This document shows, piece by piece, positions 1-15,328 of a stretch of 56,572 nt of DNA. The number at the start of each line of letters is the position of its first letter. Position 1 is the stretch's first letter. The stretch is from assembly GCA_017936375.1 (NCBI GenBank), contig JAGBFR010000016.1, positions 1-56,572 on the forward strand, in the 5' to 3' direction. Source of the DNA: Clostridia bacterium (GTDB taxonomy: Bacteria > Bacillota > Clostridia > Christensenellales > Aristaeellaceae). The position numbers were made by a program, and so were the translations under genes. The notes beneath the pieces were generated by a model. It searched no databases. It was not told the origin of the DNA and worked only from the letters and a program-made list of their open reading frames with translations.

Positions 1-140
1 CGCTGCCTGCGCCTTGCCAGCTGCGGTTACAGCTGAATCTGCTGTGGTCTGAGCGTTGTCTGCCGCTGCCTGCGCTTTGCCAGCTGCGGTTACAGCTGAA
101 TCTGCTGTGGTCTGAGCGTTGTCTGCCGCTGCCTGCGCCT
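1..140. repeat. 63-bp in-frame tandem repeat
   Basis: Units at 1..63 and 64..126 differ by one base (gcctt versus gcttt), and the start of a third unit runs to about 140. The period is a multiple of three, so the repeat encodes the 21-residue helical unit of the fibre-like gene. Near identity at DNA level points to recent expansion or ongoing recombination. Confidence 0.85.
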
Positions 141-255
141 TCTCTGCGGCTTCATGCGCCGCATCAGCAAGTCCCCGCACCTTGGAGATGCTGTTCTTCA
201 TTGCAGCGCCGATGCCCTGAATGGCACCTCTGACCTGCTCCCATGATACATACAT
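1..255 (-). CDS. Phage tail-fibre-like protein with 21-residue repeats (partial)
   Basis: The reading frame starts at an ATG on the minus strand at 255, 7 bases after a strong SD (GGAGGTG, 263..269), and runs off the left edge. The first 38 or so residues (MYVSWEQVRGAIQGIGAAMK...) are followed by identical 21-residue Ala/Gln/Asp/Thr-rich units (KAQAAADNAQTTADSAVTAA plus G) that should form a long helix or trimeric coiled coil, as in phage fibre shafts. It is the most downstream visible gene of the late operon, after two other appendage-like genes. The role in host attachment is inferred; the C-terminus is not visible. Confidence 0.6.
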   Translation of the reverse strand, partial: MYVSWEQVRGAIQGIGAAMKNSISKVRGLADAAHEAAEKAQAAADNAQTTADSAVTAAGKAQAAADNAQTTADSAVTAAGKAQAA

Positions 256-270
256 CGGTCAGCACCTCCG

Positions 271-795
271 TCAATCGCCCATCGCAGTATCGGAAAATAT
301 GAGCATAGCCATGAGCATGTTTGTCATCATAAACAATCCAACTGCTCCGATTTTCTGGTCATCCATGCAAGCAGCCATCATCGGGTAGAAATAGGCATCC
401 ATCCCCTCCATATTGGCAACCACAAGACAGCCACCTTCGATCAGTGCCTTTCCTTCCGCATAACTCATATTGGTAAGTCGTTCCTTATCCGCATAGGCGG
501 GAAGTGTCGCCGGATCGCCGCCAGAATAATCTTCCGGAATGGTGATATAGATTTTTCCCAAAGAGCCGCCACCCTTGCCGCCAATCTTGCTGGCATCCAC
601 CTTCACGATATTGCCGCCGCTGTTGACAAGGATCTTGTCACCCTCAGTCAGTTCTTCCGCTTCCGGGGCCTTCAGGATGGGATTGACCTTTTCAGCGTCA
701 ATCTGTCTGGCCGTGCCATTGCTGTTGACCAGCAGCTTGTCACCCTCATTCAGGGCTTCGATTTCCGGCACTTCATTGATGGGTCTGAAATTCAT
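271..795 (-). CDS. Phage structural protein with duplicated N-terminal module
   Basis: 174 residues. I chose the ATG at 795 because SD AGGAGTG (804..810) lies 8 bases upstream; a TTG two codons earlier is less likely. The N-terminal half holds two diverged copies of one module, EALNEGDKLLVNSNGTARQI and EELTEGDKILVNSGGNIVKV, followed by a Gly-rich hinge (GGKGGGSLGK). The C-terminal half is rich in Met and aromatics and could be a small adsorption domain. It lies between two appendage-like genes in the late operon. I do not recognise a named family; a baseplate or fibre part is inferred from context. Confidence 0.6.
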   Translation of the reverse strand: MNFRPINEVPEIEALNEGDKLLVNSNGTARQIDAEKVNPILKAPEAEELTEGDKILVNSGGNIVKVDASKIGGKGGGSLGKIYITIPEDYSGGDPATLPAYADKERLTNMSYAEGKALIEGGCLVVANMEGMDAYFYPMMAACMDDQKIGAVGLFMMTNMLMAMLIFSDTAMGD

Positions 796-810
796 ATGCA
801 ATACACTCCT

Positions 811-1311
811 TTACCACTCAATCACGTTGTTTTCTTCGTCACAGAGTACGCCGTCAGCATCGCCCACGGCCACCATCAGGTCTTCATCCGCAAGGGTTTC
901 AAGGACTTCTTCGTCCGTGACGGCATTCCTGATGTCTGCCCGGTTCAGAATCTCCATCATCTGCGCATACACGTCTTCAGCCGGAGCGGCAGGGGGGCCG
1001 CTAACGCAGAGGATGCTCTTCTTTGCTGGGACATAGGCCGGGGTGGTCGTATGCAGGTCACCCGCAAACACGCCCACACGGATTCTGAACGTATTGGACA
1101 GCACGGGCACGGGGCAGATGTTGCCGTTGAATACAACATCAAAGTAGCTGTCATCGTCATCAATCAGCCTGGCCGTCTTGACCGGGTATGCCGCCCATTC
1201 TTCGTCAAAGTCGAAGTCAATGACAAAATCGCTGTTGCCGCAGATGTAGACTGTGCGGTCTGTCTTCGTTGCGATCTTGTCCTGAACGGCAATGTGAATG
1301 ATATGTTCCAT
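811..1311 (-). CDS. Phage baseplate / receptor-binding-type protein
   Basis: 166 residues from ATG 1311 (MEHIIHIAVQDKIATK). The internal stretches DFDFDEEWAAYPVKTARLID, FNGNICPVPVLSNT and RVGVFAGDLHTTTPA match a protein type common beside receptor-binding proteins in Firmicutes prophages, built of beta-sandwich modules like the N-terminus of upper baseplate proteins. The C-terminus (AEDVYAQMMEILNRADIRNA onward) is helical and acidic. It sits directly after the large terminase gene, where a portal gene would be expected. Assignment to the particle is from family resemblance; the exact position in the virion is inferred. Confidence 0.6.
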   Translation of the reverse strand: MEHIIHIAVQDKIATKTDRTVYICGNSDFVIDFDFDEEWAAYPVKTARLIDDDDSYFDVVFNGNICPVPVLSNTFRIRVGVFAGDLHTTTPAYVPAKKSILCVSGPPAAPAEDVYAQMMEILNRADIRNAVTDEEVLETLADEDLMVAVGDADGVLCDEENNVIEW

Positions 1312-1330
1312 GGGGATATCGCCGCCTTTC

Positions 1331-2722
1331 TTATACCAGCCACGTTCCCAGTGGCTTCGGGTTCTCATATACGCCCGTCAGAGCATCCGGGGCATCATCG
1401 TGTTCATTCTTTCCTTCACGCTGATACTTTTTGATGGCCCTTGCGAACTCCGGCCATCTATCCTCCCAGTTGACAGGGAAGTATATGTTGTTCATGACGG
1501 ATGTGCTGTTTGAAAGGATTCTGGCTACCTTGTTTTTCGACTGGTGGAACCATTTGATGTTCGTGTGCCTGTTGCCCAGTTCTTTGCATTCACGCTCAAC
1601 GTTCCGGGCAAAGCCCCTGCCGCCGTTATTGCTTTCGATGATGGCACAGCCCACATTCAGCCGTGTCAGCATCTGAGCCGTGGCAGGTTCGGTCACTTCC
1701 ATGGCATCCTTGGTGTACAGCACATCCAGAATGTAGTAGGAATCCTCATACATGCCATAACAGATAGAACACAAAAAATCACTGCCTTCATCAGCAGTGT
1801 CCGTGTAATTCAGTATGTACTTGAACAGAGGATTGCCCTTCTCATCCTGCGGTGTTTCGGTGTAGGTCTTGAGTTTGGAATACAGTCTGCCCTTCACGTC
1901 AATAGGTTCCTGCTGATAGTTGGCTGCGACTATATCCTTGTTCATGTTCTTGGTCTTCAGGTCATAGTCTTTGCGGGACAGGATTTCTGGGCAGAGCATG
2001 CTGCCATCATCCTGCACAGCCTTGTAATTGACGTGAATGACATTCGGATAGTTCTGAAGGACGAACCCGGCAAGGTCATCATTGCTCCATCTGGTCATGA
2101 TGATAATCAGCTTGAAGCCGTTCTCTGTACGGGACAGCATGGTGTCCGTGAACCAGCTGATGAGCCTTTGCAGGGTGTTGGCATTGTAGGCTTCTTCTGC
2201 ATTCTTAATGACATCATCAATAATCATGATGTTACATCCGAAGCCCGTAGCCGTGCCCGTGGGGGATGTGGCCAGGTAATTGGCTTGCTGACTGCCTTCA
2301 AGCGCCCACTTCTGTGCTGATGCTTCGCCGTATTTGATTTTTGTCTTCGGGAAGATGTCATTGTATACGGTCACGCCCAGCGTCCGCTTTTCTGCGATGC
2401 TGTCACGCACCTGTTTTGCGAATGTGCCGGACAGCGTTTCATTGTAGCTGCCCGTCATCACCTTGATGTTCTTTCCGTATACGCCGAACAGCCACTTCAC
2501 AAAATTGGTGGCTGAACGTGATTTGCCATGGCGGGGCGGCATGTTGACCACCATGATCTGTTCTTCTGCATCTTCCACAAACCACTGAAGCTTTTCAGCC
2601 AGATCCTTCAGGAAGTGTCGTTCTTCCGTGTAGAAATCAGGGGATGTGAATTTACAGAATTCCCAGAAACTGCGCCGTGCCAGTTCCATCTTGGCATAAA
2701 ACTTCAAAAGCTGTTTATCCAT
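1331..2722 (-). CDS. terL: Phage terminase large subunit
   Basis: 463 residues, full length for the family. ATP-driven packaging motor and nuclease that cuts concatemeric DNA and fills the prohead. Walker A-like PPRHGKS at residues 62-68, Walker B IMIIDD at about 165-170, coupling motif region IIIMTRWSNDD near 207-216. The C-terminal RNase H-like nuclease shows acidic residues in YTDTADEGSD (about 307-315), IIESNNGG (about 361) and HDDAPDALTG (about 441-450). The start ATG overlaps the end of the small subunit gene by 8 bases (shared ATGGATAA), so the two are translationally coupled. No interruption seen. Confidence 0.95.
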   Translation of the reverse strand: MDKQLLKFYAKMELARRSFWEFCKFTSPDFYTEERHFLKDLAEKLQWFVEDAEEQIMVVNMPPRHGKSRSATNFVKWLFGVYGKNIKVMTGSYNETLSGTFAKQVRDSIAEKRTLGVTVYNDIFPKTKIKYGEASAQKWALEGSQQANYLATSPTGTATGFGCNIMIIDDVIKNAEEAYNANTLQRLISWFTDTMLSRTENGFKLIIIMTRWSNDDLAGFVLQNYPNVIHVNYKAVQDDGSMLCPEILSRKDYDLKTKNMNKDIVAANYQQEPIDVKGRLYSKLKTYTETPQDEKGNPLFKYILNYTDTADEGSDFLCSICYGMYEDSYYILDVLYTKDAMEVTEPATAQMLTRLNVGCAIIESNNGGRGFARNVERECKELGNRHTNIKWFHQSKNKVARILSNSTSVMNNIYFPVNWEDRWPEFARAIKKYQREGKNEHDDAPDALTGVYENPKPLGTWLV

Positions 2723-3299
2723 CCTCAATCAGCTTCTTCAGTTCCTCCGTGGTCAGTCCGGCCATCGGGTTATTGACTTCGCCGCTGACTTCCACCTTGT
2801 CCTGGAACATGCCCAGATGCTTGCCCAGCAGTTCAAGCGCCCTTACTTTGTCATACGGCTTGACCTCAAAGCCGTCACGGCCCTTCTTGATGACAGCAAG
2901 CGCCCGCTTCTGGTCTTCTGTCAGATCCTTGGTCAGCACAGGTTCAACCGTTCTGTACATGAGCGGGTTACCGTCTTCATCCAGCACCTTTATAGGTTCG
3001 CCGTCCGCGCTTTCAACGGTGACTTCCCTTTCTACCACAGCGGCATAATCTGCCGCATTGCTGAAGGCGATGATGGCCAGTTCACGCAGAACCCTGTCCT
3101 GTGTGATGCGTGTACGCTTGACCCGTTCTTCCTCCAGCACTCTGATTTTCTCTGCGATTGCAGTAATTTGCAGTAATTTATGTGCATTCGTGCTGGCATA
3201 TTTTTCTGCGTATCCGGCTCTGATTGCGGCTTGCGTTGCATTCAGGTCAATCAGATATTCTTCGCAGAACTGCCGCTGCCGTCTGTTCAAGCCATCCAC
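2715..3299 (-). CDS. terS: Phage terminase small subunit
   Basis: About 194 residues. Recognises phage DNA and recruits the large subunit. The N-terminus LNRRQRQFCEEYLIDLNATQ followed by AAIRAGY is the helix-turn-helix typical of the Terminase_2 family; the C-terminus is acidic and helical (AGLTTEELKKLIEDG), as for a large-subunit contact. GTG 3299 is preferred because GGAGG at 3308..3312 lies 8 bases upstream; ATG at 3305 almost touches the SD. The frame stays open far upstream through the repeat array and promoter, but that part is not coding. First gene of the visible late operon. Confidence 0.88.
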   Translation of the reverse strand: MDGLNRRQRQFCEEYLIDLNATQAAIRAGYAEKYASTNAHKLLQITAIAEKIRVLEEERVKRTRITQDRVLRELAIIAFSNAADYAAVVEREVTVESADGEPIKVLDEDGNPLMYRTVEPVLTKDLTEDQKRALAVIKKGRDGFEVKPYDKVRALELLGKHLGMFQDKVEVSGEVNNPMAGLTTEELKKLIEDG

Positions 3300-3328
3300 A
3301 ATCATCACCTCCAGCCATTTTGAGCATA

Positions 3329-3361
3329 GAAAAAGCCGGAAGGGGAAGGCCCCGTCCGGCT
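3329..3361 (-). terminator. Terminator-like hairpin inside the terS leader
   Basis: On the minus strand AGCCGGAc-GGGG-ccTT-CCCC-TTCCGGCT folds into a long GC-rich stem ending in TTTTTC, a classic intrinsic terminator. It lies between the late promoter (3388..3416) and the terS SD (3306..3312), so most transcripts should stop here unless antitermination occurs. Seen in sequence; the regulatory role is inferred. Confidence 0.8.
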
Positions 3362-3387
3362 GTGCTTTGATATTTCTTTTCACGATA

Positions 3388-3416
3388 ATACTATCACGCC
3401 AAACCTGCGAATTCAA
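3388..3416 (-). promoter_or_regulatory. Predicted late promoter upstream of terS
   Basis: Minus strand: -35 TTGAAT (3411..3416), 17-bp spacer, -10 TAGTAT (3388..3393). Predicted transcription start is near 3381, only about 20 bases before the leader terminator. A 10-bp repeat array abuts the -35 on its upstream side, the usual place for an activator. Confidence 0.65.
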
Positions 3417-3420
3417 GACG

Positions 3421-3476
3421 AATTCTTGCGAACTTTTGCGAACTTTTGCGAACTCTTGCGAACTTCTGCGAACTGC
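3421..3476. repeat. 10-bp direct repeat array upstream of late promoter
   Basis: About five and a half units of TTGCGAACTT-like sequence with an exact 10-bp period (variants TTGCGAACTC, CTGCGAACTG). One unit per helical turn puts every copy on the same DNA face, as for cooperative activator binding. A related half unit (GCGAATTC) reaches into the -35 region. Candidate target of the DUF1492 protein (4483..4917), by analogy with RinA-type activators acting upstream of terS. Confidence 0.75.
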
Positions 3477-3478
3477 AT

Positions 3479-3502
3479 GAAAAAAGCGGGTCATGCCCGC
3501 TT
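3479..3502 (-). terminator. Intrinsic terminator closing the three-small-gene operon
   Basis: Minus strand AAGCGGG-catga-CCCGCTT followed by TTTTTC. The stem includes the stop codon of the gene ending at 3491, so it ends that leftward transcript and isolates the late promoter from read-through. Confidence 0.8.
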
Positions 3503-3649
3503 CTTAAATTCGACATATCCAAAGTATGTGTCATGCCCGATCCACTTTCCGAAGCAGACCATTTGATACTGGCCGTCTCCCATCAGCAGCCGCCTGACCG
3601 CCCTGCCGTACCGCTCCTTGCTTGTGAAGTTCAGCGTCATGGTTTCCAT
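3491..3649 (-). CDS. 52-residue phage protein, unknown function
   Basis: Starts METMTLNFTSKERYGRAVRR and ends YVEFKKRA. ATG 3649 is preferred over ATG 3658 because AGGA lies 8 bases upstream of it and overlaps the other. It is basic and aromatic-rich with no membrane segment. Third and last gene of a leftward mini-operon controlled by the two-way promoter at 4136..4241 and ended by the terminator that overlaps its stop. A hairpin (3666..3687) lies just upstream of its SD. No family recognised; size and setting are like anti-defence proteins, which is inference. Confidence 0.6.
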   Translation of the reverse strand: METMTLNFTSKERYGRAVRRLLMGDGQYQMVCFGKWIGHDTYFGYVEFKKRA

Positions 3650-3665
3650 GGTTCCCATCCTTTCT

Positions 3666-3687
3666 GCCGGGGTTTTGCCGCCCCGGC
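3666..3687 (-). promoter_or_regulatory. RNA hairpin just upstream of an SD, copy 1
   Basis: Minus strand GCCGGGG-cggcaaaa-CCCCGGC, followed by AGAAAGGA (the SD). There is no T-run, so it is not a terminator. Copy 2 at 3880..3901 has the same stem and the same AGAAAG sequence after it. Confidence 0.6.
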
Positions 3688-3701
3688 GCGGCGCGTCGTG
3701 T

Positions 3702-3863
3702 TTATTTTACCCGCTCAACTCTGACGATCTTGTAGCCCTTTTCGTGGGCAATGTTCACAGCGCGTTCCCATTCCTTGCCGTCTTTCGTTTCAAAAACGAA
3801 CGGATCGGAGAAGAGTTCGGATTGATTCGGGAGGTAGTAGTACATTCTCAGCGCGTTTCTCAT
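3702..3863 (-). CDS. 53-residue phage protein, unknown function
   Basis: Starts MRNALRMYYYLPNQSELFSD and ends IAHEKGYKIVRVERVK. ATG 3863 follows SD-like GTGAGGAC. An aromatic N-terminus is followed by a charged helix and the ending GYKIVRVERVK, which resembles GYNIVKTWIE of the next gene upstream (3916..4083); both may share a small alpha-beta fold. Middle gene of the leftward mini-operon, with a hairpin (3880..3901) before its SD. No family recognised. Confidence 0.6.
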   Translation of the reverse strand: MRNALRMYYYLPNQSELFSDPFVFETKDGKEWERAVNIAHEKGYKIVRVERVK

Positions 3864-3879
3864 GCTGTCCTCACTTTCT

Positions 3880-3901
3880 GCCGGGGTTTAGCCGCCCCGG
3901 C
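3880..3901 (-). promoter_or_regulatory. RNA hairpin just upstream of an SD, copy 2
   Basis: Minus strand GCCGGGG-cggctaaa-CCCCGGC followed by AGAAAG, nearly identical to 3666..3687. It lies between the stop of 3916..4083 and the start of 3702..3863. It could protect mRNA or tune translation within the mini-operon. Confidence 0.6.
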
Positions 3902-3915
3902 TCGGCTTGCCGTTG

Positions 3916-4083
3916 TTACTCAATCCAGGTCTTTACGATGTTGTATCCGTGCTTCTTGAATCGCTCAATACCGTCTTCGGCTTCCGTGATGGATTTATAC
4001 AAGTCGTATATCGTCACTTCCCATTCATGGGTTTCATCCTTCAGAATTGCCTTCGCCGTGTAATACTTCTTGCTACGCTTCAT
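3916..4083 (-). CDS. 55-residue phage protein, unknown function
   Basis: Starts MKRSKKYYTAKAILKDETHE and ends ERFKKHGYNIVKTWIE. A very strong SD (AGGAGG, 7 bases upstream) supports ATG 4083. A basic N-terminus is followed by a predicted beta hairpin and a helix (SITEAEDGIERFKKHG). First gene of the mini-operon transcribed from the leftward promoter 4136..4164. Shares its C-terminal pattern with 3702..3863. No family recognised. Confidence 0.65.
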   Translation of the reverse strand: MKRSKKYYTAKAILKDETHEWEVTIYDLYKSITEAEDGIERFKKHGYNIVKTWIE

Positions 4084-4135
4084 TATCTTTTCCTCCTGTA
4101 TTCGGTCGGTGTGTGATGTCCTTTTCTATGGTCTT

Positions 4136-4164
4136 ATTATACTCTATTAGTACCAATATATCAA
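4136..4164 (-). promoter_or_regulatory. Leftward promoter of the small-gene operon
   Basis: Minus strand -35 TTGATA (4159..4164), 17-bp spacer, -10 TATAAT (4136..4141), close to consensus. Operator copy 1 fills the spacer, so a bound repressor would block it. Confidence 0.85.
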
Positions 4165-4225
4165 TCGGCCATACCTCTAAATATTAGTACCAATATTTGT
4201 GCATTCGGTATATTGATACTAATAT
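4145..4225. promoter_or_regulatory. Three operator copies in a two-way promoter
   Basis: TATTAGTACCAATATA (4145..4160) and ATATTAGTACCAATAT (4181..4196) are direct repeats; ATATTGATACTAATAT (4210..4225) is the same site inverted. Copy 1 lies in the leftward promoter, copy 3 covers the -35 of the rightward promoter, copy 2 lies between. This fits autoregulation by the ribbon-helix-helix protein at 4268..4468, whose family binds short repeated half-sites. Confidence 0.8.
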
Positions 4226-4241
4226 ATGGTTGTGGTATAAT
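4213..4241 (+). promoter_or_regulatory. Rightward promoter of the RHH gene
   Basis: -35 TTGATA (4213..4218), 17-bp spacer, -10 TATAAT (4236..4241). Transcription should start near 4248, which makes an ATG at 4250 almost leaderless and favours the GTG start at 4268. Confidence 0.85.
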
Positions 4242-4267
4242 CTTCTCAGATGAAAGAGGTGAAGCCC

Positions 4268-4468
4268 GTGGCACTTACAGAAGCGCAGCGCAAGGCCAAT
4301 GACAAGTATCTTGCCGCCAAGTATGAGCGGCTCCCCGTCAGCTATTCCAAGGACTTCTGCACCGCAGTCCGTGCGGCAGCTGAAGCGTCCGGCTGTTCCC
4401 TGGCCGGATACGTCAAGAAGGCAATCGAAGCACAGATGGAACAGGACAAGAAAAGCGGCGCAGTTTAA
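4268..4468 (+). CDS. Ribbon-helix-helix DNA-binding regulator
   Basis: 66 residues from GTG 4268 (MALTEAQRKANDKYLAAKYE...), with SD AGAGGTG 6 bases upstream. An in-frame ATG at 4250 would give 72 residues but lies at the expected transcript start. The part ERLPVSYSKDFCTAVRAAAE followed by SGCSLAGYVKKAIE has the strand-helix-helix pattern of Arc/CopG proteins: a strand that inserts into the major groove, then two helices with a Gly/Ser turn. It is the only rightward gene between the CI region and the left edge. The three operators beside it suggest it represses itself and the divergent small genes. Confidence 0.75.
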   Translation: MALTEAQRKANDKYLAAKYERLPVSYSKDFCTAVRAAAEASGCSLAGYVKKAIEAQMEQDKKSGAV

Positions 4469-4484
4469 CTGCACCGCCTTTTTT
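4455..4484 (+). terminator. Terminator after the RHH gene
   Basis: GCGG-c-GCAGTT/AACTGC-a-CCGC stem followed by TTTTTTATT. It overlaps the RHH stop codon and the 3' end of the convergent DUF1492 gene, closing the right side of the small cassette. Confidence 0.8.
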
Positions 4485-4917
4485 ATTCCTGCGCCTTCAG
4501 GATCTTCCCGAAGACCTCCAGCGCCCTGCCGTGCAGCTTCTCTGCCCATCTGCGGGAACATCCCTTCTTGGCACCGATCTGCTCAAAGGTCATGTATTGC
4601 AGATAGTGCATCTCCAGCACGTCATAGTATTCCTGATTGCTGATCTTATACAGCAGTTCGTATGCTTCGCTCTGCATGTCGGCCAGCTGTTCAACGTCCC
4701 TGTTGATTTCGGCATTCAGGTCAATCCACTTGTCCATGGCCGCGCTGACCTTATCCTGATTCCCGCTGCCGCCCCCGCCGCTCTCGCTCATGGTCGGGGT
4801 GATCTTCGTGGCCAGGCTGTACAGCCGTGCCGCCTTGTCCAGCTTCCTGTCAATCAGCTTGTCCAGCCGCTTGATCCGCTCCAGATATTTTTTTTCGTCA
4901 TTGCTCTGGCCTTTCAT
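4483..4917 (-). CDS. DUF1492-type sigma-like late gene activator
   Basis: 144 residues. The N-terminal coiled coil (YLERIKRLDKLIDRKLDKAA) and linker SESGGGGSGN are followed by a second helical segment and a C-terminal sigma-70 region-4-like HTH (MTFEQIGAKKGCSRRWAEKL). This layout matches phage DUF1492 / ArpU / RinA-like proteins that switch on packaging and structural genes. It is the last gene of the early leftward operon, its start overlaps the gene upstream by 20 bases, and the terS promoter with its repeat array lies about 1 kb downstream. Function by family; target inferred. Confidence 0.75.
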   Translation of the reverse strand: MKGQSNDEKKYLERIKRLDKLIDRKLDKAARLYSLATKITPTMSESGGGGSGNQDKVSAAMDKWIDLNAEINRDVEQLADMQSEAYELLYKISNQEYYDVLEMHYLQYMTFEQIGAKKGCSRRWAEKLHGRALEVFGKILKAQE

Positions 4918-5101
4918 CCGGCTTCACCTCCGTCACGGAAATCCTTTCCCACCATGCGCCGCTGAAGGAATCATTGAACATCATCCACGCTTCGCCAGCG
5001 TCACGGGCATGCTGGCCGATGACCAGCTGGATTTTGTGCCCGGATGCCGTCCGTCCCTCAACGGAGATACGCCACAGCCTTCTTGCCTTAACCATGCGCA
5101 T
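4898..5101 (-). CDS. 67-residue phage protein, unknown function
   Basis: Starts MRMVKARRLWRISVEGRTAS and ends ISVTEVKPDERPEQ. Overlaps both neighbours (14 bases with the helicase-loader-like gene, 20 with the DUF1492 gene), as expected for a coupled operon. A predicted beta strand is followed by a helix (QHARDAGEAWMMFNDSFSGA). ATG 5101 or 5095 could be the start; a GGGG just before the first favours the second. No family recognised, though compact proteins of this shape are common next to replication genes in Firmicutes phages. Confidence 0.55.
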   Translation of the reverse strand: MRMVKARRLWRISVEGRTASGHKIQLVIGQHARDAGEAWMMFNDSFSGAWWERISVTEVKPDERPEQ

Positions 5102-5621
5102 CCCCGCTTTCCAGTCTCAGTGTGAATTCGCCCTGAATCTGGCCAATGACCTCTTGCAGTTCCATCGGCAGCTGAAGGCGCATCTGCTGACGCTTGGCTT
5201 CCGTCTCAAATATCTGCTGGAAGCGCCTTGTGTAATAGCCGATGTCCTCCGTGTCACAGAGGTTGCCGAAGCCAAGGCACTTGACTGCCTTGCGGGTGAT
5301 GGGGTCAAGGCTGGCCAGTGCTTCCGCTGGCCTGTACCTGCCATAGCGCTGGATGGCCATATTGACCTTATACCATCCTTCCGACCAGTCCGGGGCATCT
5401 CCGCGCCTGACATCCACGCACATTTCCCTGATTTCTGCTATGGTCGGTGACCACTTGCTGGTGGATACCCACTTGCGCAGGGCCGCTTCAGCCACCTGCA
5501 TGGGGATGTCGTGCAGTTCCTGGAACCACAGTTCAATGGCCTGGGCGTTGGGCAGAAGCTGTTCACGGGGATAGTAGGTCTTCAGGGCCATGACCCACTT
5601 GCTGAATTCCTGCTTCGTCAC
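5088..5621 (-). CDS. Replicative helicase loader/inhibitor-like protein (G39P type)
   Basis: 177 residues. The N-terminal 70 residues (LKTYYPREQLLPNAQAIELW, then EAALRKWVSTSKWSPTIAEI) match the helical G39P-type domain, including the typical S/T-K-x-x-P-T-I-A-E-I ending. Such proteins bring the hexameric helicase to the phage origin. The C-terminal part is helical and Gln-rich. It lies two genes downstream of the replisome organizer, the usual partner. The window shows no phage helicase, so it may recruit host DnaB/DnaC; that is inference. The start overlaps the upstream stop by 4 bases. Confidence 0.7.
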   Translation of the reverse strand: MTKQEFSKWVMALKTYYPREQLLPNAQAIELWFQELHDIPMQVAEAALRKWVSTSKWSPTIAEIREMCVDVRRGDAPDWSEGWYKVNMAIQRYGRYRPAEALASLDPITRKAVKCLGFGNLCDTEDIGYYTRRFQQIFETEAKRQQMRLQLPMELQEVIGQIQGEFTLRLESGDAHG

Positions 5622-6205
5622 AGGGCAGCACCTGCCTCCGCCGCAATCAGCTTGTCCAGCAGTTCGTAATAGACAGACTTGTACGTCTCACAGCAGGTGA
5701 CCTCCAGCTGCAATTCAGCAACGCTGTCATTCAGGCTTTCGTTGACCTTCTTCTGCGCCTTCAGTTCAGTCGTGACATCCTCCAGCATCTTCTTCATGCT
5801 GTCATGGTCTTCCCTCAGTTTGGCATTCTCAAGCCACAAGTCTTCCGCATCCTCGTCCACGGAAGCCGCAAAGCCCAGCGCATCAGCCACAGCCTTCTGC
5901 ACCGCTTCAAATTCTTTCTTTGGCAGGGTCTTGACGTAGCAGCCAAGACGGTTATGGAACAGATAGCCAAGCATGGCGGGATTGGTGAACATCACCTCAC
6001 GGCAGGTTACGGGGATGGAGCCGTCACAGTCACGGTTGGTCAGCTTCAGACCCGTGCATACATGGCTATTGACGGCCAGCAGCACCCAGTAATCATCATC
6101 CCTGTCACCCTGCGTCCAGATTTCGCCGGGGTTCGCATGGGTCATGCCTTCATAGGCGGTCATATCCACATAGCCGGAGCCATTGCGCAGCATTTCATTC
6201 ATCAT
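5618..6205 (-). CDS. Phage protein with C-terminal coiled coil, unknown function
   Basis: 195 residues from ATG 6205 (SD GGAGAATG). The N-terminal half (EIWTQGDRDDDYWVLLAVNS...CTGLKLTNRD) looks like a small beta barrel related to prophage PemK/MazF-like folds of unknown role. The C-terminal half (DLWLENAKLREDHDSMKKML onward) is a continuous coiled coil, suggesting an oligomer or adaptor. It lies between the replisome organizer and the helicase loader in the same operon, so a replication accessory role is plausible but not shown. Confidence 0.55.
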   Translation of the reverse strand: MMNEMLRNGSGYVDMTAYEGMTHANPGEIWTQGDRDDDYWVLLAVNSHVCTGLKLTNRDCDGSIPVTCREVMFTNPAMLGYLFHNRLGCYVKTLPKKEFEAVQKAVADALGFAASVDEDAEDLWLENAKLREDHDSMKKMLEDVTTELKAQKKVNESLNDSVAELQLEVTCCETYKSVYYELLDKLIAAEAGAAL

Positions 6206-6208
6206 ATG

Positions 6209-7087
6209 TCATTCTCCTTCTGCCGCCCATTCAGCGGCCATGTTGTAAAATTCGTTCATCTCGTCAGCCTTGCTGGCCTTCCTGTACGGCTGGGCATCCT
6301 GACGGGGGAGCGGGACAGGCTGGGCCTTTGCCAGCTTGTCAAAGATGATCCCTTTCCAGCCGCTGGCCATGCACAGGTCAATCAGGTCAATCAGGGCAGG
6401 TTCCCCGTATTCCATGGCTTTGTTCTCCACCTGACGAAGCAGGGACTTCAGGCCCGTTTCCTTGTAGCCTTCCTTCCGCTCCGTCTTGTAGGTGATCCAT
6501 TCGGCCATCTTTGCCTTCAGGGCATCCGTCATGGTATACTCAGGTATCAGGCGTTCAAGGAGGGTGTGGGGGGATTCCTTCACACTCTTTTTCTTCTTCT
6601 TCTCTTTTTCTTTATCTCTTTCTTCTTCTTTATCTGTTGCGTTAGGTTGCGTTACAGTAACGTTATGCCTAACGTTAGGATTATCCTCTGAAGCGGGCAG
6701 GGCTTTCTTTTTGTCGTACCACTTCTTCTGACGCAGCCTGTTCTGCTCTCTGATCTTGTCCATACCCTCAATGTTCTGGTATTCGTTCCATCCGGCGATG
6801 GAGAAATAGCCCTGATCCGTCACCACCATGTTGAACTGCTCCAGAGCCTGAAGGGCCAGCTTCACGGTGTTTTCCTCAAAGCCCAGTTCATCGGCCAGCA
6901 TCTTGGGCGTGTAGGGGATGTTTTCCGTCAGGAAGATCATCCCTCCAGCGTTGCATCTCCCTGCCATGGTCAGCAGCATCACCCAAATCAGCACGATGTT
7001 GTTGCCGTCAGGAAGCTTGCGCAGGTGCTTGATTTTCCTGTTGTCGAACATGTCCGTGGTGATTTTCACCCATTTCACTTCAGCCAT
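6209..7087 (-). CDS. Phage replisome organizer
   Basis: 292 residues from ATG 7087 (MAEVKWVKITTDMFDNRKIK), with SD AAGGAAG upstream. The N-terminal 120 residues are a winged-helix domain of the phage replisome organizer family (VKITTDMFDNRKIKHLRKLP and ADELGFEENTVKLALQALEQ), which binds the origin. A very charged linker (EEERDKEKEKKKKKSVKE) leads to a DnaD-like C-terminal helical domain. Phage origins of this type often lie inside this gene; I saw no clear iterons here. Stop and the next start are 4 bases apart. Confidence 0.82.
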   Translation of the reverse strand: MAEVKWVKITTDMFDNRKIKHLRKLPDGNNIVLIWVMLLTMAGRCNAGGMIFLTENIPYTPKMLADELGFEENTVKLALQALEQFNMVVTDQGYFSIAGWNEYQNIEGMDKIREQNRLRQKKWYDKKKALPASEDNPNVRHNVTVTQPNATDKEEERDKEKEKKKKKSVKESPHTLLERLIPEYTMTDALKAKMAEWITYKTERKEGYKETGLKSLLRQVENKAMEYGEPALIDLIDLCMASGWKGIIFDKLAKAQPVPLPRQDAQPYRKASKADEMNEFYNMAAEWAAEGE

Positions 7088-7115
7088 CCTCATCACTTCC
7101 TTCCTTTGAATTTTC

Positions 7116-7526
7116 TCATTCTCTCGGAACGACCTTAAAGCATATCATGCGGTACTTGTCCCGGCTTTTGACAAGCCTGTGTGTCTGTAATAGTGCGTCA
7201 ATTCTATCAAGGCAGAAGTATGCATCCTTTTCACACTCCTTGTATTCCTTGTCGAATTGCGGGCAGTCGGGGCAGACAAATGTGTGGCAGAAATCATGGC
7301 AAGCATAGTGGAAATCGTCTTTACCAACTCCGTCCCAAGGATCAATAAAATCCCATAGCTCGTTTACGATAAAATCGCAGCGTTCATGAGATTTCCAATC
7401 AAAGAAAACATCGTCCTTGTATGCGCCATAGATGTATTTTTCGCCCCTTTTGATGATGCCGCCGCAATAATCGCATGTATGCGTTTTTCTTGCTGTTCGC
7501 TCTGAACGTCTTAAACACTCAGTCAT
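7116..7526 (-). CDS. Cysteine-rich zinc-binding phage protein
   Basis: 136 residues, SD AAGGAG 6 bases before ATG 7526. Contains CDYCGG near the N-terminus and a second cluster, CHDFCHTFVCPDCPQFDKEY followed by KEC, so at least one and probably two zinc sites. The middle (WKSHERCDFIVNELWDFIDP) is aromatic and acidic. First of a run of small zinc-ribbon genes between replication genes and the rest of the early operon. Family of unknown function. Confidence 0.6.
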   Translation of the reverse strand: MTECLRRSERTARKTHTCDYCGGIIKRGEKYIYGAYKDDVFFDWKSHERCDFIVNELWDFIDPWDGVGKDDFHYACHDFCHTFVCPDCPQFDKEYKECEKDAYFCLDRIDALLQTHRLVKSRDKYRMICFKVVPRE

Positions 7527-7535
7527 ACGTTCTCC

Positions 7536-7826
7536 TTATTCGATTTCCGGCATATCGTCCATCTTTGATCCGCAGTGCTGGCAGTAGGGCGTGTATCCGC
7601 TCCCAGCTGCCTTGCCGCCGCAGTTGTCGCAGAAGAACCATCCGGCATTATAGAACCAGTGAGAAGAACCGGGTGTGCGCACCGTCACGCTGGGTGCCCT
7701 CCGCACGATTTCAAGCGCTCCTTTGAAGCCGCCCTTCCTTGCCGGGGTGTAGGTGCGCTTCATCTCCGCATGCAGGGCAGAGATGGCATCACTGCGCCGG
7801 ATCAGGTCACTGTCCGCTGTCATCAT
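7536..7826 (-). CDS. Small zinc-ribbon phage protein
   Basis: About 96 residues from ATG 7826 (MMTADSDLIRRSDAISALHA). The motif DLIRRSDAISAL is typical of a family of short prophage proteins from gut Clostridia that end in a two-knuckle zinc ribbon; here the knuckles are CDNCGG and CQHCGS. Overlaps the end of the upstream gene by 20 bases. The SD is weak, so translation probably depends on coupling. Function unknown. Confidence 0.6.
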   Translation of the reverse strand: MMTADSDLIRRSDAISALHAEMKRTYTPARKGGFKGALEIVRRAPSVTVRTPGSSHWFYNAGWFFCDNCGGKAAGSGYTPYCQHCGSKMDDMPEIE

Positions 7827-8274
7827 CAGGCTCACCGTCCATTCGAACACCGCAAGCGGGGCAATGTTCCGGGTTTTTATAGCTATCAGTGTCCCTTCTC
7901 ATGAAGACAATCTCATCCGAAAAGGTTGCACCACATTCAGAACACTTGATGTCTGTGCGTTCATCCAGCCATCGGCCATGGCCGTTACACCGCTCCACAG
8001 GCTCATCTGCGTCTGCGTAATACACCGCACAGCGTTTGGTTTTAACACCTTCGTCAAGGATGATTCTATCCTCCCATTCGTCAACATTCTTGACGCTTAT
8101 AAAGGACGTGTTTCCTTCGTGCTGTACATGCACAGCGTCGATGGTTTGCCGCCTGTCCACAATGTTTATGGCTTCACCAAGCGCCGCCGCATAAGTTGAA
8201 TGGCCGTTATCCTGCATGTGGTTTGCAAAATAGATTAACTGTGCTTTCAGCGAATCCGCATCAATCGGCCGCAT
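7807..8274 (-). CDS. Zinc-ribbon phage protein
   Basis: 155 residues. Strong SD AGGAGGG before ATG 8274. The N-terminus MRPIDADSLKAQLIYFANHM matches a very common prophage protein type beginning RPIDADxLK; the C-terminal third carries a zinc ribbon (CSECGATF and CPACGVRMDG) like that of its downstream neighbour. Overlaps genes on both sides. Function unknown; paralogy to 7536..7826 in the C-terminal module is visible. Confidence 0.6.
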   Translation of the reverse strand: MRPIDADSLKAQLIYFANHMQDNGHSTYAAALGEAINIVDRRQTIDAVHVQHEGNTSFISVKNVDEWEDRIILDEGVKTKRCAVYYADADEPVERCNGHGRWLDERTDIKCSECGATFSDEIVFMRRDTDSYKNPEHCPACGVRMDGEPDDDSGQ

Positions 8275-8461
8275 TTCCGTCCCTCCTGTTCCATAATCTT
8301 GCTACACGACTTCCTTCGCTTCTAGACGTTCCAACTGCATCCATCTTCAGGTTGCAGTTATGGCATTTGATGCGTTCAACCCAGAAGAAGCCTTCACAGA
8401 AATGCTCATAAGTCGGCAAGTCCCCGCAGAATGGGCAAGGCTTGAATTTAACCTGTGCCAT
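8261..8461 (-). CDS. Lar-like restriction alleviation protein
   Basis: 66 residues from ATG 8461 (MAQVKFKPCPFCGDLPTYEH), SD GGAGGTG 6 bases upstream. CPFCG near the N-terminus, CHNCN in the middle and the ending SRVARLWNRRDGN fit the Lar family (CPFCG...W..R), small zinc proteins named after the Rac prophage protein that reduces type I restriction. Family match is moderate, and many members have no tested activity. It is the only gene in the early operon with a recognisable anti-restriction link. Confidence 0.65.
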   Translation of the reverse strand: MAQVKFKPCPFCGDLPTYEHFCEGFFWVERIKCHNCNLKMDAVGTSRSEGSRVARLWNRRDGNAAD

Positions 8462-8588
8462 ACTCTTCACCTCCAGCAGGTTCCCATTTTGTGCATTCGC
8501 CGTCCTGGATGCACCCTATGCACAGATAGTGGATGGATGCACCCAGGGGCGAACGGTATTTGCATGTAGCGCAGCAGTGCTTCTGCAT
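8448..8588 (-). CDS. 46-residue cysteine-rich phage protein
   Basis: Starts MQKHCCATCKYRSPLGASIH and ends AGGEEYGTG. Five or six cysteines (CCATCKY, CIGC, GEC) suggest a zinc knuckle. Starts right after the stop at 8594 and overlaps the Lar-like gene by 14 bases, so it fills a gap in the coupled operon. A GTG at 8597, four bases inside the previous gene, is another possible start. No family recognised. Confidence 0.45.
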   Translation of the reverse strand: MQKHCCATCKYRSPLGASIHYLCIGCIQDGECTKWEPAGGEEYGTG

Positions 8589-8593
8589 GGCCG

Positions 8594-8962
8594 TCACTTC
8601 GGAAGGCCCTCATATTCCCAGTGCGGATGCCCCGTCTTGGTCAGGCATTCATCGCACTTCTCGCCGTTCCAGTGCTTGCAGACCCCGCAGTCACCCTGCA
8701 TCTGGATCTTCATCAGGTCAATCTGCCCCTCCAGCTGCTGGATGAGGGCACCATGGCGAAGCACGGCACCAATGGCAAGTTCTCTGCATTTGTCCCAGAA
8801 TGCGTTCCAATCTTCAAACGGGAATTCTGCGTTCCTATAATCCGGCCTAGTTTCCTTTGGGCCGCAGGAAAGGCAGTTATCGCATTTCATCCAGATGTGA
8901 ACGGAATCTGCATCAAGCCGCATTTTCTCCCCGCAGTATGGGCATTTCGGAAGTGGATTCAT
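8594..8962 (-). CDS. Zinc-ribbon phage protein
   Basis: 122 residues from ATG 8962 (MNPLPKCPYCGEKMRLDADS), SD AAGGAGGG 8 bases upstream. N-terminal ribbon (CPYCGEK, CDNCLSCG), then a segment FEDWNAFWDKC resembling restriction-alleviation-type proteins, and a C-terminal module CGVCKHWNGEKCDEC ending HWEYEGLPK. That last module recurs in the neighbour 8965..9372 (CGNCKH...HWEWRGMPD), so the two share a common domain. Function unknown. Confidence 0.6.
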   Translation of the reverse strand: MNPLPKCPYCGEKMRLDADSVHIWMKCDNCLSCGPKETRPDYRNAEFPFEDWNAFWDKCRELAIGAVLRHGALIQQLEGQIDLMKIQMQGDCGVCKHWNGEKCDECLTKTGHPHWEYEGLPK

Positions 8963-8964
8963 GG

Positions 8965-9372
8965 TCAGCCCTCCTTGTCCGGCATACCGCGCCATTCCCA
9001 GTGGTTATTGTCCGGCTCATAGATGTCACAAGTCTTGCATGGACAGCTTTCGATATAGCAATCATCACAAAGGAAATCATTGTCTTTGCAGTCAGGCTTC
9101 GAACCTCCGTGCTTGCAGTTTCCACAACCAGAAAAGGTCTTCAATTCCTTCAGCATTGCATCCCGCTCATTCAGAACGTTTTCCAGCACAGCAGTCAGCC
9201 GTTCAATCAGGTCGTTATCGTCACGCTGTTTCTCCTTGAGATAAGCGTCAATGGCTTCCGCAATCGTTGCGTATGCTTTCGGCCTGATCGTGTGGATTTC
9301 TTCATTCGCCACAAACATCATCGGATGTCCAGCACGGTCAAGCAGTTCCTTGATCCTGTCAAACGTTGTCAT
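8965..9372 (-). CDS. Phage protein with coiled coil and cysteine-rich C-terminus
   Basis: 135 residues from ATG 9372 (MTTFDRIKELLDRAGHPMMF), SD GGGAGGG. The middle is helical (LIERLTAVLENVLNERDAML); the C-terminal 45 residues hold eight or more cysteines (CGNCKHGG, CKDND, CDDCYIESCPCKTC) and end NNHWEWRGMPDKEG, like the ending of 8594..8962. A zinc cluster on a helical dimer is likely. Function unknown. Confidence 0.55.
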   Translation of the reverse strand: MTTFDRIKELLDRAGHPMMFVANEEIHTIRPKAYATIAEAIDAYLKEKQRDDNDLIERLTAVLENVLNERDAMLKELKTFSGCGNCKHGGSKPDCKDNDFLCDDCYIESCPCKTCDIYEPDNNHWEWRGMPDKEG

Positions 9373-9374
9373 CT

Positions 9375-9569
9375 TCAGCCCTCCCACTTCTGTTCAAGCC
9401 ATCTGACTTTGCATTCCTCGCAGACGGTCATGTCCTTCGGGTTTCCGTCCCATGCGCAGTCCCTTGCGCTGGTGCATTCGATGTAATTGGCAATCGACAC
9501 CTTTTCTTCCCAGTCAAGGATGTCAAAGTTGTTCAGGGCATCGGCCAGCGCCCGTGCATTCGTCAGCAT
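9375..9569 (-). CDS. 64-residue phage protein with Cys pair
   Basis: Starts MLTNARALADALNNFDILDW and ends CEECKVRWLEQKWEG. CTSARDC and CEEC could bind one zinc. The start overlaps the stop of the frameshifted gene upstream by 7 bases, giving coupling rather than a strong SD (only AAGAG). No family recognised; it fits the series of small zinc proteins. Confidence 0.5.
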   Translation of the reverse strand: MLTNARALADALNNFDILDWEEKVSIANYIECTSARDCAWDGNPKDMTVCEECKVRWLEQKWEG

Positions 9570-9873
9570 CTCTTGAACACCTTGCCTTTCCCGTTGTCCC
9601 GGTTGGCCTTCTTTTCCCTGGCGGCTTTTAAGTGCCGCTCCTCAATGGCCCATTCATCCTCCAGCTTGGCCAGAAATGCCTTGCCGTCCATATTGGTCAA
9701 GGTGCCGAAGAGCGGGGATAGAAAGAAGCGCTCACAATCGGCCAGCATGTACTGCTGTACATCGTGTCCGGGCACTGGAACAGCCGCTTCTTGGCAATCC
9801 TCCAGTCCTGCACGGCCTTCTTCACAATGCCGTTCACAAGGCGAATGCAGCCCTGCTCATCAAGATTCATCAT
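9563..9873 (-). pseudogene. Small phage protein broken by a frameshift
   Basis: Frame 1 starts at ATG 9873 (or 9870) with SD AAAGGA and reads MMNLDEQGCIRLVNGIVKKA, then VQDWRIAKKRLFQCPDT before leaving the family pattern and stopping at 9697. A second frame (from about 9770 to the stop at 9563) continues it: ADCERFFLSPLFGTLTNMDG, then KAFLAKLEDEW. In the common prophage family, a helix like the first is followed directly by an ERFF...L...D...L...L segment like the second, so one intact protein of about 100 residues was probably encoded. The shift lies around 9745..9775. No clear slippery heptamer, so mutation or assembly error is more likely than programmed shifting. Confidence 0.6.
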
Positions 9874-9886
9874 GCGTTTTCCTTTC

Positions 9887-10369
9887 TCAGTCCATGAGGG
9901 CACTGAAGTCAACCCCGGCCCAGCTTTTGCCTTCCCGGTCATAGGCCAGCAGGTGGTCAAGCGACCTGCCCAGCTTGCATGCACGGCAGTTCTCCTTGAA
10001 GCACATCTTGCACTGCTCATGAGCAAAATACAGCGCCGCATGCAGGTCATCCGCAGCCACCACGATTTCGTTCTTTTCGACCATCCGCATCCGGGGCCGG
10101 ATGAGGATGTCAAAATGCGTGTGCTTGGCCTGACGCTTGACGGCTTCCCGCTTTTCCTCCGGCACCGTGGCGATGATGTGCCGCATCAGCTTATTGCCCA
10201 CGCTCAGAAGCAGATGCAGGTCACGCTTGCCGTTCGGAATCGCCTTGATCCGCTGGGCCATCCGCTCTTCTGCGATTTCAAACTGTCCAAGACCTGCGAA
10301 CATGCCATAGATGTTCTTGTATTGGTCTTCCGATACCCGGAAGGTGGGGAGGTCATAATTCTCCTTCAT
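9887..10369 (-). CDS. Phage protein of unknown function
   Basis: About 160 residues from ATG 10369 (MKENYDLPTFRVSEDQYKNI); AAGGA lies 10 bases upstream. Mostly helical, with RDLHLLLSVGNKLMRHIIAT and, near the C-terminus, CKMCFKENCRACKLGRSLDH, which suggests a zinc or metal site. It overlaps the preceding 56-residue membrane gene by 17 bases. No family recognised. Confidence 0.55.
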   Translation of the reverse strand: MKENYDLPTFRVSEDQYKNIYGMFAGLGQFEIAEERMAQRIKAIPNGKRDLHLLLSVGNKLMRHIIATVPEEKREAVKRQAKHTHFDILIRPRMRMVEKNEIVVAADDLHAALYFAHEQCKMCFKENCRACKLGRSLDHLLAYDREGKSWAGVDFSALMD

Positions 10370-10523
10370 CCCGCTTGTCCTTCCTCTCTTCGAGCCACTT
10401 TTCATGCTCCCATTTCAGGGTGATATCGTACATCTCCACATCATCACTGCGGTCATTCCTGCCCATGCAGTAGGCCACACAGTGGGTGATGAGCAGACAG
10501 AGCAGCCACCACAGATCCATCAT
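10353..10523 (-). CDS. 56-residue single-span membrane protein
   Basis: Starts MMDLWWLLCLLITHCVAYCM, a hydrophobic N-terminal segment of about 20 residues, then a charged tail (EKWLEERKDKRDEGEL). SD GGAGGTG is well placed before ATG 10523. Overlaps genes on both sides (4 bases upstream, 17 downstream). Topology inside-tail is likely. Such tiny membrane genes in early operons are usually of unknown role. Confidence 0.55.
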   Translation of the reverse strand: MMDLWWLLCLLITHCVAYCMGRNDRSDDVEMYDITLKWEHEKWLEERKDKRDEGEL

Positions 10524-10744
10524 CCGCACACCTCCAATTCGAAAATGTTCATCTGGCCTTCCAGTTCAGGCTGGGCAAACATGCCTTCCTGCTCCCCGGC
10601 CAGCCCTTTCCTGTGCCGCCACAGACGGCATTCCCGGCTTGTGCATGTGTCTACAAGCTTCCGGCTTCCGCACATGCAGTCAAGGCACTTGGCCCGAATG
10701 TCAGCAAGCAGTACGTCCGTGCTGACCGTGTGCCCTCTTCGCAT
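10520..10744 (-). CDS. Cysteine-rich small phage protein
   Basis: About 74 residues from ATG 10744 (MRRGHTVSTDVLLADIRAKC). The core IRAKCLDCMCGSRKLVDTCT followed by RECRLWRHRKG matches a widespread prophage protein type (IRAKCLDC....V..C....CPL...R.G) that probably binds zinc. Overlaps the next gene by 4 bases and the previous (membrane) gene by 44. Function unknown. Confidence 0.6.
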   Translation of the reverse strand: MRRGHTVSTDVLLADIRAKCLDCMCGSRKLVDTCTSRECRLWRHRKGLAGEQEGMFAQPELEGQMNIFELEVCG

Positions 10745-10871
10745 CCTCCGGCTTCCTTTCTCCCTCACGCATCATGTCCATGGCGCAGACCACGCCGAAC
10801 AGCCCGGTGATAATCAGAGCGCCCGCCAGCAGGATGCTGGCCGCAATCCAGAAAAACTGCATAAAGTCCAT
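10701..10871 (-). CDS. 56-residue single-span membrane protein
   Basis: Starts MDFMQFFWIAASILLAGALI with one clear membrane helix (about residues 5-30), then a hydrophilic tail EGERKPEDAKRAHGQHGRTA. SD AAGGAG lies 8 bases before ATG 10871. Its last 44 bases overlap the next gene in another frame. Second tiny membrane gene of this operon; no family recognised. Confidence 0.55.
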   Translation of the reverse strand: MDFMQFFWIAASILLAGALIITGLFGVVCAMDMMREGERKPEDAKRAHGQHGRTAC

Positions 10872-10873
10872 GG

Positions 10874-11026
10874 TCACTTCTCCTTTTCAAATTCTCGCTT
10901 GTAATCGTCCGCAAGATACACAATCTGCCCCTTGGCCGTGCATATGCAGACCAGCCGTCCGTTTCGCTTATTGATCGGGGATGCCGCCCGGCTGGGCGGC
11001 TTGTCCCTTCTTGTGTCAAGCTTCAT
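10874..11026 (-). CDS. 50-residue basic phage protein
   Basis: Starts MKLDTRRDKPPSRAASPINK and ends LADDYKREFEKEK. SD-like GGGGTG 6 bases before ATG 11026, which overlaps the stop of the gene upstream. The N-terminus is basic and probably disordered; the rest (RLVCICTAKGQIVYLADDYK) is a likely beta hairpin plus helix. No family recognised; coding status rests on position in the packed operon. Confidence 0.45.
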   Translation of the reverse strand: MKLDTRRDKPPSRAASPINKRNGRLVCICTAKGQIVYLADDYKREFEKEK

Positions 11027-11180
11027 ACTTGGCACCCCTGACGTATTCAAGCACCCGCTCTTCATTGACCAGACGGTGTGCGTCAATCGGATCTTCTGCC
11101 GCCAGTTCCGGGTATTTCGCCTGAATCAACTGCCTGTTGCGTCTCACGCTCTCAAAGGGCGGGAAGCCGTATTCCTTCAT
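11016..11180 (-). CDS. 54-residue phage protein
   Basis: Starts MKEYGFPPFESVRRNRQLIQ and ends ERVLEYVRGAKYEA. There is no good SD; ATG 11180 lies inside the end of the preceding gene and probably relies on coupling. Helical and charged. It fits exactly between two coupled neighbours, which supports it as a gene. No family recognised. Confidence 0.4.
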   Translation of the reverse strand: MKEYGFPPFESVRRNRQLIQAKYPELAAEDPIDAHRLVNEERVLEYVRGAKYEA

Positions 11181-11349
11181 ATTCAGCAGGAAGCGGGGGC
11201 ACCGTCAGGCTCTTCAGGTCGGGGCAGTCGCTCCGCTCTGCGATGTATTCCAGCACTTTGAGGTATAGGAAGCTGTCACTGTTGCGGGTTCGCTTGTCTT
11301 CCTCCAGCACATGCTTGACGATGTGCGCCGTGGCCTTGAGATTATCCAC
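11152..11349 (-). CDS. 65-residue phage protein (early-operon family)
   Basis: From GTG 11349 (MDNLKATAHIVKHVLEEDKR). AAGGTG lies about 7 bases upstream; the longer open frame upstream overlaps another gene and is not needed. The pattern IVKHVLEEDKRTRNSDSFLY followed by LKVLEY is shared by many small proteins of Firmicutes prophages of unknown function (a helical domain with an arRNsD.yLyl motif). Overlaps both neighbours. Confidence 0.55.
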   Translation of the reverse strand: MDNLKATAHIVKHVLEEDKRTRNSDSFLYLKVLEYIAERSDCPDLKSLTVPPLPAEYEGIRLPAL

Positions 11350-11827
11350 ACGGTTCACCTTCCTTTCTGTATGTGTTCCCCCAGTCGCATCTGATCGGAA
11401 GAATAATGCCGACCGGGATGTCATCCTTGGGTGTTGCGCCCTTTTCTGTCACGGCAATCATGCCAATCTCGTCCTCTCCCTGCCAGAATCTTGGGTTCTG
11501 GAAGTTGGCAAGGAAGGCGTTGTTCACGAACACGTTCTTGCCGGATGCCTTCAGTCTGCGGTACATCCGCTTATCTCCGAAGCCGCCGCCATGGTAATCA
11601 TCAGTCAGGAAAATCTCATTTTCCGGCTTGATAAGTTCGGAATAGTTCAGCGGCTGCATCTGCATGCACTTGCCCGCATTGAATGAGATGGCAGAAAGGG
11701 GAAAGATGTACCCCATGTATCCATCAGCGGTGACGAATACATGCGTGTCATCCACGGGGAAAAAGTATACTCTTTCGCCCCTGACCATCTTGTTGAACAC
11801 TTCTCTTTCGGCTCTGATGATATTCAT
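11342..11827 (-). CDS. Phage protein of unknown function, 161 residues
   Basis: Starts MNIIRAEREVFNKMVRGERV; ATG overlaps the stop of the ThyX-like gene (ATGA). Predicted mixed alpha/beta: FFPVDDTHVFVTADGYMGYI then IFLTDDYHGGGFGDKRMYRR and DEIGMIAVTEK. A regulator or substrate-binding domain is possible, but no family is recognised. Translational coupling to 11824..12402 suggests they act together. Confidence 0.55.
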   Translation of the reverse strand: MNIIRAEREVFNKMVRGERVYFFPVDDTHVFVTADGYMGYIFPLSAISFNAGKCMQMQPLNYSELIKPENEIFLTDDYHGGGFGDKRMYRRLKASGKNVFVNNAFLANFQNPRFWQGEDEIGMIAVTEKGATPKDDIPVGIILPIRCDWGNTYRKEGEPCG

Positions 11828-12734: not shown

Positions 12735-12738
12735 GTGA

Positions 12739-13074: not shown

Positions 13075-13079
13075 GTTCA

Positions 13080-15304: not shown

Positions 15305-15328
15305 AAAATCACCCCTTTCCTTGTTTTG

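Follow-up and report, generated by a model that had tools for sequence, protein, structure and literature searches.

Reg_p576 is an RHH repressor with repeated operators, encoded by the conjugative plasmid p576 (pLS20 family, clade II); in the available part of the paper describing it, establishment genes are off in the donor and fire briefly after transfer (PMC8708921). The same part likens this control to that of phage anti-CRISPR genes, for which the repressors discussed there are HTH proteins (PMC8708921). For archaeal viruses, early anti-defence regulons under shared regulatory DNA have been proposed in the accessible part of another report (PMC11065993). A further parallel is offered by the SAS/ESAS elements of cluster K mycobacteriophages, described in the accessible part of the source as repeats, partly with an inverted repeat, lying directly upstream of the starts of varied genes (PMC3203893). 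Our search of the full-text literature, a coverage outside which most subscription papers fall, returned no phage RHH cassette of the type presented below.

Here we analyse such a locus in the window, that is the whole stretch of 56,572 nucleotides under study, which corresponds to contig C35 in a genome of 2.85 Mb that is 81% complete. We put the probability at roughly 55% that the locus is an autonomously regulated accessory cassette which mounts a repressor-limited entry burst against the host with interchangeable cargo. Its architecture and the swapping of its genes are well supported, and an anti-defence role of its three small proteins is plausible and reasonably inferred.

A cassette with its own control DNA between the early operon and terS

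The left part of the window is a temperate prophage of a gut-type bacterium, which encodes a resolvase-type recombinase and two HTH_3 regulators (Table 1). Along the prophage, leftward genes are followed by the regulator gene 4483-4917, the cassette, terS and terL, the last two on the strand of the three small genes (leftward); most late genes are absent from the contig because it starts about 1.3 kb beyond terL. The regulator also gave Sigma70_r4 and DUF1492 matches slightly under the cut-offs and may control the late genes. From the cassette terminator to terS (3334-3474), the window holds TTGCGAACTT-like repeats in an array phased at 10 bp, together with a -10-like box and a second terminator, also leftward, as a candidate late promoter with sites for this regulator; the layout before terS reads alike in a cousin phage (L021), with different repeats. 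One of the leftward early genes (13943-14986) carries a PAPS-reductase domain, which is also known from DNA-modification genes.

The initial annotation had described the cassette as a self-contained unit with the early operon on one side and terS on the other, in which three leftward genes of 52, 53 and 55 residues and a rightward RHH gene share a two-way promoter with three copies of a 16-bp operator, between terminators on both sides. This picture was borne out throughout. The reading frames are present at the places given, the promoter is a divergent sigma-70-like pair in which each member has 11 of the 12 consensus letters, and the three operator sites are palindromic. Four promoter-like sites were counted in 3000-5000, vs 1.9 (sd 1.4) in shuffles, which is in itself unremarkable. 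The operator (ATATTRRTACYAATAT) had no match in 100 dinucleotide shuffles of the window; within the window it is confined to the cassette, and all remaining matches in the 2.85-Mb genome, with up to two mismatches allowed, carry two mismatches. Both flanking terminators fold strongly compared with shuffles (dG -13.6, z -4.3 and dG -15.3, z -4.8), and neither was listed by a consensus terminator scan.

With a transcription regulator gene (phrog_36) on one flank and terS, read in the direction of the small genes, on the other, the RHH protein could be imagined to time the neighbouring late genes, the small genes being passengers of an early/late switch. We regard this as improbable: a terminator of its own closes the cassette, terS is preceded by a separate repeat array as well as the second terminator, the operators within the window do not extend beyond the cassette, and RHH genes paired with operators are found in other contigs too.

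Table 1. Features of the cassette and of the surrounding prophage (positions in the window).
Feature	Position	Strand	Basis or remark
Leftward promoter TTGATA-17-TATAAT	4136..4164	-	Promoter scan; alignment of five related heads
Rightward promoter TTGATA-17-TATAAT	4213..4241	+	Promoter scan
Operator O1	4144..4159		1 mismatch; fills the -35/-10 interval of the leftward promoter
Operator O2	4181..4196	+	0 mismatches; between the two promoters
Operator O3	4210..4225	+	0 mismatches; covers the -35 of the rightward promoter
RHH (Arc-like) protein P0004, presumed autorepressor	4268..4468	+	Longer reading from ATG 4250
Terminator past the RHH gene	4450..4484	+	Folding; end of the RHH frame enters the stem
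Small gene 1, P0003, 55 aa	3916..4083	-	Predicted beta-beta-alpha-beta; purifying selection; replaced in sister phage
Hairpin + Shine-Dalgarno spacer ahead of gene 2	3874..3901	-	
Small gene 2, P0002, 53 aa	3702..3863	-	Predicted beta-beta-alpha-beta; purifying selection
Hairpin + Shine-Dalgarno spacer ahead of gene 3	3660..3687	-	
Small gene 3, P0001 from second ATG	3491..3649	-	52 aa from ATG 3649; 55 aa from ATG 3658
Leftward-operon terminator	3480..3505	-	Folding vs shuffles
Regulator, phrog_36 (transcription regulation), E 1.4e-19	4483-4917		Last of the leftward early genes before the cassette
HTH_3 regulator	15466-15660	-	Prophage
HTH_3 regulator	15834-16187	+	Prophage
Resolvase-type recombinase	17543-18913	+	Prophage

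The RHH protein and its association with the operators

The RHH protein more likely starts at GTG 4268 than at ATG 4250, because a cousin contig has ATG at the former codon and the family profile starts there. On its own, P0004 matched no RHH family in Pfam and hit a PHROG of unknown function (E 2e-9); a profile of 11 of its relatives matched the Arc repressor in the PDB (1b28, E 8e-7). Protein searches with all four proteins (P0001-P0004) against 50,697 phage records gave no match, and in a search of the other genomes of the genus as a set, run with P0004, 3 of 29 matched. The host genome encodes a second RHH of the P0004 family (L193, G000:C9:20861-21031), with one loosely similar site upstream.

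To relate the protein to its presumed sites, pairs of operators 8-38 bases apart were collected by a scan of DNA only, which gave at least 143 loci (28 in IMG/VR and at least 115 in genomes), and RHH homologues were sought there with an HMM based on five RHH proteins. A homologous RHH lay at most 250 bp from the operators in 27 of the 143 loci listed, vs 3.6 by random placement, a count that includes HMM-source contigs or the sister phage (L021, L024 and L035) and two loci that look like near copies (L020 and L041). One further locus had its RHH homologue elsewhere, and the other 115 of the 143 had no RHH of the P0004 family, so that part of the set is probably chance. This co-occurrence beyond random placement and the Arc profile match support the earlier claim that the RHH gene and the operators belong to one set; the co-occurrence suggests that the RHH protein binds to the operators.

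When loci were drawn by the RHH profile (30 examined out of 36 matches, five of them, L170, L179, L186, L190 and L197, over a shorter stretch up to the end of the DNA), two or more operator copies were present only at the window's own locus, and a single copy at two others. The idea that every RHH of the P0004 family works on this operator is rejected by this count (1/30), and other sites must be in use across the wider family. A variant of the operator with a GGTACC core occurs with its own RHH subfamily (L115, L125, L133, L151 and L157); two of these loci, L157 and L115, have the RHH gene ahead of a large gene, which in L157 encodes an SNF2/ResIII-like helicase. At another locus (L009, 3270-4330), two tandem RHH genes come after a gene pair that we take to be DUF4258/YgiT-like, and three operators lie downstream.

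Genes with an ArdC anti-restriction domain, whose background frequency was uncontrolled, lie near two related RHH loci; in one (L088) the operators are upstream of the ArdC-domain gene, and in the other (L019) they are imperfect, with 2-3 mismatches. We take these neighbours as mildly supportive of the anti-defence reading. Other related RHH loci adjoin a zeta toxin-like gene, DUF4160/DUF2442 or a helicase, and this variety indicates that the regulator is used for accessory genes generally. RHH proteins are common among antitoxins, and the zeta-like and DUF4160/DUF2442 neighbours would also suit a toxin-antitoxin module in which the RHH protein is the antitoxin-like regulator. This we consider highly improbable, since the genes are divergent, the RHH gene is constant while the cargo changes, and P0001-P0003 match no toxin family in Pfam, PHROGs or NCBIfam.

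Small genes, their exchange and the spacers

The cargo proteins are near-orphans. As far as searched, small gene 3 is present only in the window and in the sister phage; against 396 genomes drawn from the order, P0001 gave one further match (L165), dropped as a chance match lying out of frame inside another gene. For P0002 and P0003 the window's own genome was the sole match in the same set, and alignment-based scans for further relatives of the two returned contigs already known. P0001-P0003 matched no named family, and no known Acr or anti-defence family, in Pfam, PHROGs and NCBIfam, databases which contain few anti-defence families; P0003 matched PHROG 5962, of unknown function (E 0.003). 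Genes 1 and 2 are under purifying selection (pN 0.28 and pS 0.83 for gene 1, pN 0.16 and pS 0.91 for gene 2, pS being near saturation in both) and thus encode real proteins.

Structure models of P0003 and P0002, each built from an alignment of two sequences, reached pLDDT 89 and have the element order beta-beta-alpha-beta in both. The GY(K/N)IV ending noted earlier for two of the proteins is there to the letter; a sequence kinship of P0002 and P0003 is unsupported against shuffles (p = 0.34), and the element order of their models agrees. The proposed check of the small proteins by HMM and structure tools named no family and was weakly favourable in the fold matches of gene 1 to phage inhibitors. 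Searched against PDB sequences, the profiles of P0003 and P0002 found nothing significant (best E 0.084 and 0.03, respectively). In Foldseek, the top PDB match of gene 1 was p56, the uracil-DNA glycosylase inhibitor of phage PZA (prob 0.97, E 0.064), followed by T7 Gp2 bound to RNA polymerase (prob 0.85, E 0.10), and its best matches among viral models were uncharacterised phage proteins (E 0.012). Gene 2 was best matched by phycobilisome linker proteins (E 0.022) and, lower, by the RNA polymerase-binding protein YkzG (prob 0.72, E 0.63). No fold match of either gene reaches 1e-3, and E is at least 0.06 for those in the PDB.

The p56, Gp2 and YkzG matches are what would be expected if the small proteins served host take-over or growth modulation, binding host RNA polymerase or DNA-repair enzymes while the RHH protein limits their toxicity. 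We hold this to be unlikely: the E-values of these fold matches are not significant, and the 55-aa beta-beta-alpha-beta model fits phycobilisome linkers and many uncharacterised phage proteins as well.

The small genes had been expected to be swapped behind a constant head, and such a swap is seen in both the sister phage (L035) and the cousin (L021). The sister is 98.2% identical to the window over 3298-3913 and 98.4% over 4078-4453. Between these blocks, the 164 bases of the gene 1 region in the window correspond to 324 bases in the sister, where an unrelated 108-aa gene without PHROG or Pfam family stands in place of gene 1; one break point falls close to the start codon, the other at the base of the following spacer. 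The sister also has an extra 62-aa gene, absent from the window, between the RHH gene and the terminator. In the cousin (76.6% identity in terS/terL, 84.6% in the head), promoter, operators and RHH are kept while the leftward cargo differs: its genes of about 75, 67, 256, 90 and up to 111 aa have no blastn match to the window except in the spacers, the final two genes belong to PHROGs of unknown function, and the row ends, by reading, in a similar GC hairpin. A further contig (L010), with an RHH 32% identical to P0004, retains promoter-operator DNA 75% identical over 108 columns ahead of a leftward ORF of 54 aa without family. The early operon is also patchily different between the window and the sister, showing that swapping is not special to the cassette.

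Genes 2 and 3 are each preceded by an identical 28-nt element, a GC hairpin followed by AGAAAG (spacer core GCCGGGGCGGCNAAACCCCGGCAGAAAGG), which recurs ahead of unrelated genes in other phage contigs. A 29-base form has exact copies in two more IMG/VR contigs (L166 and L167), and the element is present in 2 of 29 genomes of the genus, the host included; one genome (G026) has two copies with 3 mismatches each. Compared with window 1-19000 by blastn and tblastx, the stretches of L166, L199 and L201 (5.2, 3.0 and 1.6 kb) matched in the spacer only, and L167 in the spacer and one early gene. A second spacer type (CCCGCCCCGGAGGTTACGAGGGCAGAAAGGA) lies ahead of the 256-aa gene of the cousin and is also present in G005 (1 mismatch) and G026, and two copies of it can be read where L166 ends; a third type is found twice in L206. 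One G026 spacer array adjoins a terminase small subunit gene, and the gene 1 relative in L012 stands behind a looser spacer. In two other genomes of the genus (L207, 1161-2599, and L206), rows of small accessory genes stand behind spacer elements, one of the rows being adjacent to a terminase small subunit gene. For five spacers, folding was no stronger than in shuffles (z -1.2 to +0.4), so that the case for the spacers rests on the reuse of their sequence and not on unusual stability.

Proposed mechanism and comparison with known systems

In the preferred reading, that of a repressor-limited accessory cassette, both divergent promoters would fire upon infection of a repressor-free cell, the leftward one producing three tiny proteins in a burst, with host factors as their targets (in counter-defence or host take-over), and the rightward one giving the RHH protein. 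The latter would then fill the three palindromic operators, one per promoter and one between, and shut both promoters, and in a lysogen the cassette would stay off. Between related phages the small genes would be exchanged behind a retained promoter-operator-RHH head, perhaps with the aid of the short repeated hairpin-Shine-Dalgarno spacers. A bolder proposal, which we advance tentatively, is that gut Clostridia phages share a portable entry-protein cassette, in which standard spacers act as recombination linkers and counter-host genes are plugged singly behind a constant head of divergent promoter, three palindromic operators and RHH; the RHH protein of a resident prophage would, in addition, keep the cassette of a related incoming phage silent, as a second immunity layer beside the CI-type repressor. 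If this proposal were true, operator and spacer DNA could serve as bait for new anti-defence families. Likewise, should the cargo serve counter-defence, small inhibitors in gut phages could be sought at the DNA level with the operator-RHH head and the spacers as bait, guilt by association via protein similarity being of no use for such near-orphans. In that case the RHH-limited entry-burst logic of a conjugative plasmid family would also extend to phages.

Like anti-CRISPR/Aca loci, the cassette belongs to a temperate phage and combines tiny unrelated genes with a small DNA-binding protein, the presumed autorepressor. It differs in that, according to the accessible part of the source, an HTH repressor follows the acr gene in one operon there (PMC8708921), whereas the cassette's RHH gene is divergent. 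Moreover, the cassette has no match to a known Acr in Pfam, PHROGs or NCBIfam and no Cas1 was found in the host assembly (81% complete), and an anti-CRISPR function in the narrow sense is therefore disfavoured.

For the spacers, SAS/ESAS is the nearest described parallel, as far as the available part of that account goes: both are repeated inverted-repeat elements immediately upstream of the starts of several gene families. The strings differ, however (SAS/ESAS core GGGATAGGAGCCC vs spacer core GCCGGGGCGGCNAAACCCCGGCAGAAAGG), as does the host group, and the cassette spacer borders an exchanged gene in a repressor-linked cassette.

The best reading of the cassette as a whole would resemble the RHH-controlled establishment regulon of p576, moved into a phage and fitted with swappable cargo. 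Judged from the available part of the p576 paper, both have an RHH repressor and repeated operators at promoters including its own, binding in the cassette being probable from co-occurrence, and p576 has short inverted repeats before ardC, while ArdC is found near two RHH relatives of the cassette. They differ in their carrier (plasmid vs phage), in the operator (a dual heptamer, TTATCCCnnTTATCCC, in PMC8708921 vs the 16-bp palindrome ATATTRRTACYAATAT) and in extent, four promoter regions in p576 against one divergent promoter pair here; and, in contrast to the p576 regulon, the cassette is without ArdC and its cargo is interchangeable.
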